From Proteiniborus sp. DW1 (GTDB lineage: Bacteria > Bacillota > Clostridia > Tissierellales > Proteiniboraceae): 64,000 nt of DNA. The stretch's first letter is position 1, and every line of letters begins with the position of its first letter. A program made the position numbers and the translations under genes. Location of the stretch: contig NZ_FMDO01000038.1 in assembly GCF_900095305.1 (NCBI RefSeq), positions 1 through 64,000 of the forward strand. The letters are read 5' to 3'. Below are positions 39,390 through 43,926 of the stretch, piece by piece. The notes below the pieces were generated by a model. It saw nothing but the letters and a program-made list of their open reading frames with translations, was not told the origin of the DNA and made no database searches.

Positions 39390-39424
39390 AAAAAAAGGAT
39401 ATGCAATATAAACACATATCCCTT
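39390..39424 (-). terminator. Terminator of the sepF-divIVA operon
   Basis: 10-bp stem with one G-T pair (39394-39424) that includes part of the divIVA stop codon, then TTTT. Confidence 0.8.
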
Positions 39425-39893
39425 ACTCTTCACTATTATCTATTCCTAAATCCTTATAATAGTCATCTAATGATTCTAGTTGTGATTGAAGCAATGTTTT
39501 AAATCTAGTCTTAAACACCAACATATCTTTCCGTAGTGTCTCATATTCTTCTCTAACCTTAAGTGCTTCATTTTTAGCTTCTTCAATAATCTTTTTTGAA
39601 TTATCTTCAGCCTCTTTAATAATCAACTCTGCACTCTTTTTCGCACTAATCTTAACTTCTTCAGCAGTGCTTTGTGCTACAACTAATGTATTTTGAAGAG
39701 TTTCTTCTATTTTATTATAATGCTTAATTTGGTCATTAAGCATGGAAATTTTATCTTTAAGTTCAATGTTTTCTTTATATATTTTTTCATAATCAATCAT
39801 AATTTCATCTAAAAAAGCATCCACATCTGTTTCCTTATATCCTCTTACTCCTCTTTTAAACTCCTTATTTTGAATGTCAAGTGGTGTAAGCAT
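39423..39893 (-). CDS. divIVA: DivIVA domain cell-division protein
   Basis: Membrane-curvature binding polarity protein that recruits division or sporulation factors to poles and septa. The 156-aa protein has the N-terminal lipid-binding domain (MLTPLDIQNKEFKRGVRGY then VDAFLDEI) and a long coiled coil from about residue 30 to 140. It is last in the order yggS-sepF-yggT-ylmH-divIVA, the standard Gram-positive division cluster. Confidence 0.94.
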   Translation of the reverse strand: MLTPLDIQNKEFKRGVRGYKETDVDAFLDEIMIDYEKIYKENIELKDKISMLNDQIKHYNKIEETLQNTLVVAQSTAEEVKISAKKSAELIIKEAEDNSKKIIEEAKNEALKVREEYETLRKDMLVFKTRFKTLLQSQLESLDDYYKDLGIDNSEE

Positions 39894-39911: not shown

Positions 39912-40703
39912 TTACTTAATTATTTTTACAACGACTTTATATCTATCTTTCCTTGTCTTTCCCAAAATCATACTAACTTTTGTTCTTCCAAAACCACGTA
40001 TTGATATCATGTCATTTTCATGTACTTCTTTAGAAATTAAATCTATAGTCTGCCAATTAACCTTAACATAACCATTTTTAATGAGTGAAGAACTTTTTTC
40101 TCTAGAAAGATTGCAAATAGCGCTTACAAATACGTCCAGCCTAAAAGAAGATAGGGTTAAGCTTTTTTCAATAAAATCATCCTGCGCCTCTTCCAATTCA
40201 AATGATTCTACTTCAGTTATTACTACTGGTTCCCTGTTGATCATATCCAAATTGAATTTTATGTAATCTGCGATTTCCTTAAAAGTAATTATATTTCCAT
40301 AATCTTTATGGATTAATATATCACCAATTTTTTCTCTCTTTATACCTAAACTCATTATGGCGCCCAAATAATCTCTATGAGTTAATTCTCTGAACTTAAA
40401 GCTTCCATCAATTCTCAATGCCTGTATTGGTGATAAAACATCGCTCCTATCCATATAAGACGGAAATATTATTATAGACTTTCTTTCAGAGTTTTCTAGT
40501 CCTCCATCTTCAAAAAATGAAACTTCCTGAAACCTATTAATAAATGAATAACATAGCTTTCTTTGATATGGATCTAGAAAATCAGTAAATTCTATAGAAT
40601 ATTTTCCAACTACTCTTTCAAGTTTATCTAAAACTCTGCGCATAGTTAAGTGTTGATTTTTATCTTTAATATGTTCTATTAATGCGTTTTTATCCATTGT
40701 CAT
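39912..40703 (-). CDS. ylmH: YlmH family S4-domain RNA-binding protein
   Basis: S4-domain protein of the division cluster; Bacillus YlmH has recently been tied to ribosome quality control on 50S subunits, the same process as RqcH in this window. The 263-aa protein ends with an S4 domain (about residues 186-245, RLDVFVSAICNLSREKSSSLIKNG ... VHENDMISIRG). Start ATG 40703 overlaps nothing and follows TAGGAT. Neighbours yggT and divIVA. Confidence 0.9.
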   Translation of the reverse strand: MTMDKNALIEHIKDKNQHLTMRRVLDKLERVVGKYSIEFTDFLDPYQRKLCYSFINRFQEVSFFEDGGLENSERKSIIIFPSYMDRSDVLSPIQALRIDGSFKFRELTHRDYLGAIMSLGIKREKIGDILIHKDYGNIITFKEIADYIKFNLDMINREPVVITEVESFELEEAQDDFIEKSLTLSSFRLDVFVSAICNLSREKSSSLIKNGYVKVNWQTIDLISKEVHENDMISIRGFGRTKVSMILGKTRKDRYKVVVKIIK

Positions 40704-40710
40704 ATCTATC

Positions 40711-40974
40711 CTAAAAAATTATATTAATAATTCTAGACAGAAAAGATAGGAATAGTATAGCCAAAAGAGGCGAAAAATCTATCATTCCTGTATCAACTTT
40801 CAGTCTTCTCAAAATTTCCCTAAATGGTGATAAAACTGGTTCAGTAACTTGAAAGATAAAAGAGGTTATAGCATTATTTGTATCTATTACAATAAATGAT
40901 AATATAGCTCTAATGAAAATAAGAGTTTCAACTATATAAATTAGCCTTTCTAATGCCATCTTTAAAACGCCCAA
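40711..40974 (-). CDS. YggT family membrane protein
   Basis: Small integral membrane protein of unknown role (cell-division cluster). The 87-aa protein has an N-terminal helix (IYIVETLIFIRAILSF), the family motif TEPVLSPFREILRR and a C-terminal helix (FSPLLAILFLSFL). I set the start at TTG 40974, because AAGAGGTG lies 6 nt before it and the upstream GTG is within that site. Confidence 0.88.
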   Translation of the reverse strand: MGVLKMALERLIYIVETLIFIRAILSFIVIDTNNAITSFIFQVTEPVLSPFREILRRLKVDTGMIDFSPLLAILFLSFLSRIINIIF

Positions 40975-40990
40975 GCTTTTCACCTCTTAA

Positions 40991-41440
40991 TTATTTTTGC
41001 CAAGGAAATATTCCTTTGTTTTTTAATTCTTCCTTTAATCTTGAATCTATTTCTACATTACTTGGAGCTAAAATGAATATATCTTTAGAAACTTTTTGAA
41101 TATTACCATCTAATGCATAAATTGAACCATTTAAAAAATCAAAAATTTGCTTCTTTGGTTCTGTTTCCATTTCTTCTAAGTTTATGACTACAATTTTCCT
41201 GTTTTTTAAATCTTCGACCATTTTAGGAGCTTCTTCATATTTTATGGGCTCATAAACTACTAGCTTAACAGTATTATTAGTATGAATATTTAAAATCTTA
41301 TTCTGTCTATACATATTTTTTTGTAAATCTAATTCAATTTCATTATTAGTTTCAACTATTTCATCATCTGGTTCTTCCATATCATCAATCCCTATTATAT
41401 ATTTAACCTTATTCATAAACTTGTTTGCAATGTCTCCCAT
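40991..41440 (-). CDS. sepF: Cell division protein SepF
   Basis: FtsZ-binding, membrane-anchoring protein that aligns Z-ring filaments. The 149-aa protein has an N-terminal amphipathic anchor (MGDIANKFMNKVKYIIG), an acidic linker, and a C-terminal SepF domain (YEEAPKMVEDLKNRKIVVINL; FDFLNGSIYALDGNIQKVS). AAGGAGG precedes the ATG, 3 nt after yggS. Confidence 0.94.
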   Translation of the reverse strand: MGDIANKFMNKVKYIIGIDDMEEPDDEIVETNNEIELDLQKNMYRQNKILNIHTNNTVKLVVYEPIKYEEAPKMVEDLKNRKIVVINLEEMETEPKKQIFDFLNGSIYALDGNIQKVSKDIFILAPSNVEIDSRLKEELKNKGIFPWQK

Positions 41441-41443
41441 TTA

Positions 41444-42142
41444 TTAATCCTCCTTATATGTTCTTTTTCCAAAAATACCAGTTCCTATACGTATCATATT
41501 TGCACCTTCTTCTAATGCAACTTCAAAGTCATTTGTCATTCCCATAGATAGATATTTCATATCTACATTAGAAAATTTAAATTCCTTAATATCCTCAAAC
41601 ATATTCTTTAAATCTCTAAAAACAAATCTCACTTCTTCAGGATTTTCTACATATGGTGCTATTGTCATTAAGCCCTTTACTCTTATTCGATTAAAGTCTT
41701 TTATAGTTTCAATAAAAGGGATAACTTCTTCTTTTCTTAAGCCAAATTTAGAGTCTTCCTCAGCTATATTTACCTGAACTAATGTATCTACACATATATC
41801 ATGTTCTTCAGCTCTTTTTTGGATTTCTTTAGCTAAACTAACTCTATCTAATGAATGTATCAAATGAACCTTATCAATAATATACTTTACTTTGTTACTT
41901 TGTAGGTGCCCTATCATATGCCATTTTGTGTTTGGAACTATTTTCTCATATTTGCATTGAATTTCCTGAACTTTATTTTCTCCAATATCTGAAATTCCAT
42001 AGGAAATAGCCTCGTTAATTCTGTCAACATCTACTGTTTTAGTTACAGCTACTATTGTAATATCATCCAAGCTTAAGCCTTTTTTAGATATGATACTGTT
42101 TACTCTTTCATAAATTTTATCAATGTTATTTTTAATATAAAT
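41444..42142 (-). CDS. yggS: YggS/PLPBP family PLP-binding protein, probable ATT start
   Basis: Pyridoxal-phosphate homeostasis protein with an alanine-racemase-like barrel; PLP lysine in the VAVTKTVD segment, then GENKVQE, WHMIGHLQSNK and MGMTNDFEVA. A TTG at 42070 would give 208 aa but would remove the first helix that all relatives have. The same frame continues upstream for 24 codons (NIDKIYERVNSIISKKGLS) to an ATT at 42142, with GGGAGGG 7 nt before it. No ATG, GTG or TTG exists in that interval, and the frame is closed upstream by the previous gene's TAA. I annotate the 232-aa version with a non-canonical ATT start. Confidence 0.8.
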   Translation of the reverse strand: MYIKNNIDKIYERVNSIISKKGLSLDDITIVAVTKTVDVDRINEAISYGISDIGENKVQEIQCKYEKIVPNTKWHMIGHLQSNKVKYIIDKVHLIHSLDRVSLAKEIQKRAEEHDICVDTLVQVNIAEEDSKFGLRKEEVIPFIETIKDFNRIRVKGLMTIAPYVENPEEVRFVFRDLKNMFEDIKEFKFSNVDMKYLSMGMTNDFEVALEEGANMIRIGTGIFGKRTYKED

Positions 42143-42160: not shown

Positions 42161-43455
42161 TTAATCAATTATAAGTCCTTCTTTAATCTTACTTCCATTA
42201 ACAAATACTTCATCATACATTTGCATAGTATTAAATTTCTGAACTTCACCATTTATTTCAAGCTCTATTACACTATTAAGCCCAGCCCCTTTACTTACAA
42301 TAGTATGCTCATTATGGCTAGCTAATATTTTTATTGGTCTAAATTTAACTATTCCGCTTATATCTTTAATATAAACACCCTTTATTCCATCTTTTTCTAT
42401 TATGGACTTACTTGGAATTATCAGTCCCTCATATGTGTTTTTAACTATATGGATATCTAAGTATCTTTCATTGTAATATTCGTGGAAATATTCCGTTAGT
42501 TTTAAGATAATAAAGCATTTGTCATTTTCTTTAACAAGTCTTACTACTCTAGATATTATTTTTCTTTCATCATCATTGATTTTTATGTATATTGTCTTAC
42601 CTTCTTCAAGCTTGTCCATTCCCTTAGAATCAACTTCCGTCATTATATACCATGTGAAATTATCTATTATCTTATAAACAGGCTCTCCAAAATTAACTAT
42701 ATTCTTTTCTGTCAAGTCTGTTTTGTTTACATCTATAAGTCTATAATCACTAGATTCATAATCATTGATTTTGCTTATTGTAAAAATATCCTCTAAACCA
42801 TCTAGCTGGTAGCTTATTATTCCAGATTTTGGAGCGTAGCTTACATGTTTAGAACTTTCCATATTTTTGATAATTTCATTCTTTCGTTCTAGGAGATTAT
42901 CTAAGCTATTAGACATGAGACTATTTTGCCCTGCAACTAGCTGTTGCTTGTCAATAGTCATTAGTAAGGTATCCCTGTGTATAAGAGCATCGCTATAATT
43001 TCCACTTAATATACTATTTTGAAGTTCATCAATTATTGAAGCAATATTATCATGTATTTTATTTTTATCTTCATTAAGTATTTCCTTATTATCTGATGAT
43101 TTTTTTAATATCTCTATCTGTCTATTTATCTCTTCTAACTCATTTGAATATGTACTCCCCTCTGCTCTGTTAATTCTAGCAACTTGAACTCCCTTAGCCA
43201 CCTTTTCACCTTCTTGCTTTAGCAAAGATACAGTACCTTGAGTTTCTGACTTATATACAAACTCATCTTTAATAACTATTCCTTTAGAAGAAACAATATC
43301 TTCTATAACTCCAGCCTCAGCAATAACAGTCTTATGAATTCCTATGGAAAATACAGGTATCATTCTAGAAAAAATATAGGATACTACAATTATTATTAAA
43401 GTAATTCTAAATCTTTTACGCTTAATTCTTTTTTTTTTCGTTCCTCTTGAGACAT
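42161..43455 (-). CDS. HlyD-like membrane-anchored protein with frame change at an A10 tract
   Basis: Resembles the adaptor (HlyD/membrane-fusion) proteins found beside sepF in clostridia; function unknown. The body (about 42161-43363) has a biotinyl-lipoyl-like segment (YKSETQGTVSLLKQEGEKV), a coiled-coil middle and a beta-barrel tail. The only good start, ATG 43455 with AAGAGGTG 5 nt upstream, is in another frame and would stop after 19 codons. Shifting at the ten A (43429-43438) joins MSQEERKKK to RIKRKRFRITL, a basic stretch, a membrane helix (ITLIIIVVSYIFS) and the body. Either a sequence error, a mutation, or programmed slippage. Confidence 0.7.
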
Positions 43456-43548
43456 TAGACCACCTCTTGCCTATTATAATTCTTCATACAATTCTATTTT
43501 CCTTCAAACTAAAACGAAAAAATTCAGAAATTCTAAATTATGAAGCAT

Positions 43549-43926
43549 TTATTTGAAAAAGCATCCATATTTACTTACTACTTTTATTTTTTTGATTTTA
43601 TCTAATTCAAAGCTTTTTACCTCATCTTTATGGGTCACTAATAATAGCTCTCTATTTTTAGTTTTTGCTCCAATTACTATTCCATCTACTTTATCGTTAT
43701 TATATAAAGTTACCCTTATCTCATCTCCTGATTTTAATTTGACTCCACTTAAGGAGAAAAACTTCATGTCTGTTTCATCAATATGATCCTGGGTCACAGA
43801 TTTTTTGCCTAAAACTATTATATTATCACTTAAATAGAGTTTTTCTTTAACAACTACTAAAATATATCCAATTATGCTCACTAAAAAAAGCATTATCAAA
43901 ACCAATATAATTTCAGATAAGAACAT
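43549..43926 (-). CDS. Single-pass membrane protein of unknown function
   Basis: Not recognised. The 125-aa protein starts with one hydrophobic helix (residues about 3-27, LSEIILVLIMLFLVSIIGYILVVV), followed by a hydrophilic domain with repeated beta-strand character (GDEIRVTLYNNDKVDGIVIGAK, ELLLVTHKDEVKSFELDKI) that could be an SH3/OB-like barrel. It precedes the HlyD-like gene by about 90 bp on the same strand, so the two may work together at the membrane. An extended -10-like TGATATACT lies upstream. Confidence 0.65.
   Translation of the reverse strand: MFLSEIILVLIMLFLVSIIGYILVVVKEKLYLSDNIIVLGKKSVTQDHIDETDMKFFSLSGVKLKSGDEIRVTLYNNDKVDGIVIGAKTKNRELLLVTHKDEVKSFELDKIKKIKVVSKYGCFFK

Follow-up and report, generated by a model that had tools for sequence, protein, structure and literature searches.

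A run of ten adenines separates the start and body of an HlyD-like adaptor gene in Proteiniborus: a candidate site of programmed slippage

Introduction

How does a gene yield its protein when its start codon and its body lie in different reading frames? The question is raised by an HlyD-like adaptor gene in Proteiniborus sp. DW1, within the 64,000 nt of DNA that we analysed as a whole and call the window (contig NZ_FMDO01000038.1, positions 1-64,000; assembly GCF_900095305.1). Its start codon leads into a run of ten adenines (A10), beyond which the starting frame soon stops and the rest of the protein continues in another. In our reading, production of the protein probably depends on slippage at A10, whether of RNA polymerase or of the ribosome. 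Programmed poly-A slippage is already known as a kind; what is unusual here is the position of the tract, nine codons into the gene, which limits the unslipped product to 10-19 residues.

Runs of at least nine A or T are avoided in many bacterial genomes (PMC1088944), and three described systems share features with the HlyD gene. In tssM of Citrobacter rodentium, an A11 run slips at about 20-25% (PMC4256274); in both genes the poly-A run lies inside the gene, a stop is nearby in the unslipped frame and only slipped transcripts give, or would give, the full protein. Both tssM products are long and needed, whereas the HlyD gene without slippage yields 10-19 aa ending in an unconserved tail, and slippage is experimental for tssM whereas for the HlyD gene we infer it. 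Transcriptional realignment has been proposed for dnaX genes split over two ORFs at poly-A, of which 9 of 17 in one cluster have exactly ten A; unlike that of the HlyD gene, the unslipped dnaX product is a long functional subunit (PMC3711429). In Clostridium thermocellum, the A9 run of IS1447 slips both ways, at about 16% per direction, and relatives of this element were detected in Tissierellia (PMC6211511). The IS1447 transposase and, as we propose, the HlyD gene are thus both cases of A-run slippage in low-GC anaerobes, although IS1447 is a mobile element with a stem-loop before the run and the HlyD gene is chromosomal with weak folds there. A full-text search, with most subscription journals outside its coverage, found no paper combining HlyD, transcriptional slippage and frameshift.

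If the slippage reading is true, a non-mobile chromosomal gene has been held out of frame over long evolutionary time, and slippage apparently sets its dose rather than producing two useful proteins. Automatic annotation may label such a gene a pseudogene or place its start past the membrane helix. Because the neighbours are cell-division genes, the dose of the adaptor may matter for the envelope.

Reading frames at the start of the HlyD gene

The ATG of the HlyD gene occupies positions 43455-43453 of the minus strand at ideal spacing from its Shine-Dalgarno sequence (Table 1), and the letters AAGAGGTGGT at the ribosome-binding site are the same in two congeners, each another species (G001 and G002; the window's own genome is G000). 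Reading from 43455 gives nine codons, ATG TCT CAA GAG GAA CGA AAA AAA AAA, that run into A10. The zero-frame tail 3' of the tract is unconserved, and the complete peptide has 19 aa in G002 and 10 aa in G001. The body frame is open from 5' of the tract down to a TAA at 42161; its earliest ATG, GTG or TTG lies at 43363, past most of the membrane helix, and a search of this frame for a start usable for the HlyD body found none. A preliminary description of this DNA had reported the Shine-Dalgarno sequence, the ATG at 43455, nine codons, ten A at 43429-43438 and a stop, all of which proved exact in their coordinates on re-reading, and had placed the long body in the frame reached by one added nucleotide or a -1 slip, where we indeed found it open to 42161. 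One added nucleotide in the RNA and a ribosomal -1 slip on A_AAA_AAA would give the same protein.

Table 1. Features of the HlyD gene and the genes that follow it, in window positions
Feature	Position	Strand	Remarks
Shine-Dalgarno AAGAGGTG	43461..43468	-	5 nt 5' of the ATG
Zero-frame short ORF, product MSQEERKKKELSVKDLELL then TAA	43396..43455	-	19 residues; the stop is codon 20
A10 tract, proposed slippage site	43429..43438	-	final A of CGA and the three AAA codons after it
HlyD_2 adaptor, main body	42161..43429	-	422 codons and stop; reached via one added nt or a -1 slip
yggS	41444..42142	-	next gene 3' of HlyD; expected start reads ATT behind GGGAGGG
sepF	40991..41440	-	downstream gene
yggT/ylmG	40711..40983	-	downstream gene
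ylmH (S4 domain)	39912..40703	-	downstream gene
divIVA	39423..39893	-	downstream gene

Encoded adaptor and neighbouring genes

The protein read from the tract onwards scored 294 bits against HlyD_2 (PF12700), exceeding the curated cut-off of 25.1 across almost the entire profile (positions 7-416 of 416), and 276 bits when taken from 43363. Taken from 43363, it reached 101.8 bits against TIGR02828 (putative membrane fusion protein), below the cut-off of 154.4. An AlphaFold2 model built on a 21-sequence alignment (mean pLDDT 82.4, pTM 0.57) has beta domains and four long helices in addition to a helix at the N-terminus. Ranked by E-value, the top Foldseek matches were adaptors: MexA, AcrA and MacA, for example, at low global TM, and BesA, whose TM over the target was about 0.66. 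The gene is thus like HlyD_2 and TIGR02828 proteins in family (for TIGR02828, below the cut-off) and in its location beside yggS; it is unlike the HlyD_2/TIGR02828 relatives of its order in being broken, 142 of 150 of these being in frame. The position ahead of yggS, sepF and divIVA reported earlier was borne out, the genes following in the order yggS, sepF, yggT/ylmG, ylmH, divIVA. Directly upstream of the HlyD gene, at 43549-43926 of the minus strand, lies a gene for a 125-aa protein with a hydrophobic N-terminus, which is present in both congeners and had no Pfam match at E 0.001.

The break within the genus and across the order

Genus-level and family-level searches yielded an identical set of three genomes, one per species, and all three have the identical ATG, exactly ten A and the same break. 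The bodies in G002, whose genome is assembled as one 3.88-Mb contig, and in G001 are 71% and 57% identical to that of the window, their matched parts have no internal stop, and among the three species dS is 1.25-1.46 and dN 0.16-0.26 (Nei-Gojobori, own script). Because the bodies are stop-free and strongly constrained, the gene looks functional despite the break, and the break looks old. The locus thus combines, as in programmed transcriptional realignment, a run of at least nine A or T in a coding region with a break at the run, and a break kept in all three species with dN well below dS. Homopolymers change length faster than other sites, and a tract length that would be in frame is one step away, yet all three species have the out-of-frame length. 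The retention of exactly ten A in spite of this fast change suggests that the out-of-frame state is under stabilising selection and serves to limit dose.

We drew on 249 genomes of the order, of which 187 had a homolog at E 0.001 or better, and examined the starts of 150, counting A-run lengths in a stretch that begins 75 nt ahead of the match start and ends 60 nt past it. An in-frame start was present in 142 of the 150, and eight had no usable one; six of these were found by a script as starts without an in-frame ATG, GTG or TTG, and two (L083, L276) were added by eye. L083, one of the five broken starts with A10, was scored broken with its sole in-frame TTG near the start falling inside the membrane helix. 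These five are the three genomes of the genus together with G051 and G064, which belong to other families, and all five are broken in the same direction. None of the in-frame starts among the 150 homologs has an A run above nine nearby. The other broken starts are L098 and L287, both with A8, and L276, which is broken in the opposite direction, so that seven of the eight share a single direction and the lone exception is a weak single case. We set aside L098, L287 and L276 as evidence for programming, these being single-genome breaks without A10. In L276 (G246), the break lies near A6 and A7 runs behind a TTG. L287 (G242) and L282 (G243), from genomes classed as different species, are identical over about 170 bases at the HlyD start except that the former has A8 (broken) and the latter A9 (in frame), a difference that could be a real polymorphism or an error, of which it has the appearance.

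In-frame relatives read through from the same kind of N-terminus that the Proteiniborus gene would have if joined (MGQEERKKKRARKRKIRL in L029, MSQEERKLRRKRKKRWRL in L018), in line with the earlier claim that its two parts belong together. Within the body, no homolog in our table is visibly split on a single contig into pieces whose open frames differ; in five the two pieces share an open frame, one spans two contigs and G006 has an inner TAA. Since no such splits are visible within bodies, the visible frame breaks cluster at the A-rich start. The break in G064 is confined to a single genome, 21 examined congeners (of 23 others with a match) starting in frame. Whether the break in G051 arose independently of that in the genus is uncertain and it may be shared by descent, because G051 and G042 group with the window's genus at a support of only 0.445. 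In genome contigs, a single-protein search found no relative, and an alignment-based search, from which the window's own genome and its nearest relatives may be missing, found 29 loci, many labelled Tissierellia or Tissierella and including one weak match in a bin labelled Nitrosovibrio. The named relatives in this search (Tissierella, Anaerosalibacter, Caloranaerobacter, Thermohalobacter and Schnuerera) point to Tissierellales as the probable order.

Transcriptional and ribosomal slippage

We favour, with moderate confidence, the reading that A10 is a programmed slippage site, mainly transcriptional, at which a productive fraction limits the amount of adaptor. Ribosomes would start at the ATG at 43455 on the strong ribosome-binding site, and on a faithful transcript they would stop after 19 residues, leaving a short peptide that is probably waste. 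If RNA polymerase copied the run with one A too many, or two too few, the mRNA would read into the body and give the full adaptor with its basic tail, membrane helix, and beta and helical domains. Only a fraction of transcripts would be productive, and the tract may thereby keep the amount of this envelope protein low. From the sequence, we infer that slippage occurs, that it is mainly transcriptional and that its benefit is limited expression.

The same protein would result from programmed -1 ribosomal frameshifting, in which the mRNA carries ten A and tRNA-Lys pairs slip one base back on A_AAA_AAA, an explanation that has several points in its favour and that we nevertheless regard as unlikely. 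Two overlapping zero-frame A_AAA_AAA heptamers are present in all three species. The direction of the shift is shared by seven of the eight broken starts, which runs counter to a transcriptional reading: for Antonov et al., orthologs that all shift one way indicate ribosomal frameshifting, and breaks in both directions transcriptional realignment (PMC3711429). In E. coli, magnesium-chelatase gene reporters gave 63, 40 and 10% for 11, 9 and 7 A's, values that the corresponding section of the paper gives without separating mechanisms (PMC3711429). On the other side, single-sequence folds of the 70 nt after the tract in the three species revealed no notable structure that might stimulate frameshifting (z of -0.07, 2.02 and -0.68), and a Shine-Dalgarno-like GAGGA 5' of the tract is weaker in G001 than in the window. 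Seven A's would suffice for the ribosome, yet ten are kept in all five broken A10 starts. We hold slippage to be more likely transcriptional than ribosomal, though both may contribute, because the five A10 cases exceed the seven A's required for ribosomal slippage, because the RNA downstream shows no notable structure and because an A9 run in Clostridium slips at about 16% each way (PMC6211511). A search for a hairpin before the run found only weak folds of -2.0 to -4.3 kcal/mol.

Explanations without programmed slippage

The break might instead reflect phase variation, with replication slippage altering the tract length and the genomes sampled in an OFF state, as an on/off switch of the kind that the preliminary description had raised. 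Poly-A can vary, and the A8 and A9 of L287 and L282 differ in another genus, whether by a real change or an error. Within Proteiniborus, however, a switch finds no support, as exactly ten A, all OFF, occur in all three species (one genome each), the body is strongly constrained, and the neighbours are division genes rather than genes for surface antigens. We consider phase variation improbable.

An assembly or sequencing error hiding a true tract of eleven A is more improbable still. Errors are frequent in homopolymers, neither the window's own genome nor G001 yielded an A run longer than ten, and the single-genome breaks in L098, L287 and L276 may well be errors. A simple assembly error at the HlyD locus is nevertheless unlikely because the comparison with relatives, which had been proposed as a check, revealed the same A10 break in two further species, one of them assembled as a single contig, with tract length equal in all three. 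Runs of 14, 16 and 20 A are present in G002 and one of 12 in G051, so lengths above ten are not lost there. Further coding A9 and A10 runs sit in open ORFs; in G001 this holds for the two remaining A10 runs (397 and 122 aa), and in G051 for the other A10 and the A12 (307 and 104 aa). Because those ORFs stay open, the G001 and G051 assemblies do not routinely drop a base in such runs.

Long runs elsewhere in these genomes set the HlyD tract in context. In the window's own genome (3.12 Mb), A runs of at least nine number 40; four of them are A10, and none is longer. Around the other three A10 runs, no ORF of at least 70 aa lies within 30 nt on either strand, and no 90-codon open segment starts at the run, which puts them outside recognisable genes. 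The rarity of A10 and the recurrence of the break at one place in all three species speak for more than coincidence. On re-checking the own-genome loci, the HlyD run was the sole A run at which a 90-codon open segment begins with no start codon preceding or overlapping the run. Other candidates for hidden breaks were rejected: the overlapping open segments at L121 are an ordinary gene junction with its own start, and at L132, L142 and L149 (T9 or A9) the next gene opens just past the run. We also compared own-genome runs of at least nine with 29 G001 regions (30 loci from 42 overlapping pattern hits, with the known A10 locus added), and found three other A/T9 runs at the same place in both genomes with no frame broken. 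Of these, two are coding and in frame, a Lys-Lys-Lys stretch and a Phe-rich stretch, presumably in FliP, and one is intergenic. The intergenic T9 run is kept in two species in DNA about 70% identical (L139 position 544; L257 position 1501), upstream of a gene starting KYIITTWGCQMNEHDSEK, which we take to be MiaB-like. At the HlyD tract, the probability that three adjacent Lys columns would read AAA throughout in all three species is about 0.03, given the gene's own usage (9 of 28 conserved Lys columns). A-run conservation is not unique to this locus and by itself is weak evidence, so our argument rests on the out-of-frame length together with the conserved protein.

Translation of the body without slippage, from a non-AUG start in its own frame, is the least credible explanation: the adjacent yggS apparently uses AUU, so such starts may exist in these genomes, and the last body-frame codon before AAA in the three species (ACG, AAG, AAG) is each time one base off ATG, yet none of the three has ATT, ATA, ATC, CTG, GTG or TTG in the body frame between ribosome-binding site and tract, 3' of the tract ATT occurs in two species and GTA in the third, and a conserved, ideally spaced ATG would be left purposeless.

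The start of yggS and a possible volume control

As a tentative extension, which we think doubtful as a whole, start-proximal poly-A slippage would be a selected and repeatedly evolved volume control of an adaptor in the division cluster, the out-of-frame state being kept to make slipped transcripts the sole productive ones, with a second device at yggS. If this is true, the operon would have two distinct conserved decoding throttles, poly-A slippage and the yggS AUU.

The Met position of yggS reads ATT behind a long Shine-Dalgarno sequence, GGGAGGG (window 42156-42140, minus strand). We surveyed this start in L001-L030 and L180-L207, and after removal of 17 duplicates and four loci without the motif, 37 distinct loci of the 58 remained. 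A script found a near-cognate codon at the start in 27 of the 37 (ATT in 19, ATA in four, ATC in four), and 20 of these 27 have no ATG, GTG or TTG there or up to six codons earlier. The ATT of yggS thus looks, from its sequence context, like a conserved near-cognate start. A full-text search, again with most subscription journals outside its coverage, found no paper on yggS with an AUU start codon; in Staphylococcus aureus, the genes with reported near-cognate starts include infC, ccpN and cvfC1 (PMC13009471). Among the remaining ten yggS loci, one has ATG, one has TTG and eight are misaligned or unclear.
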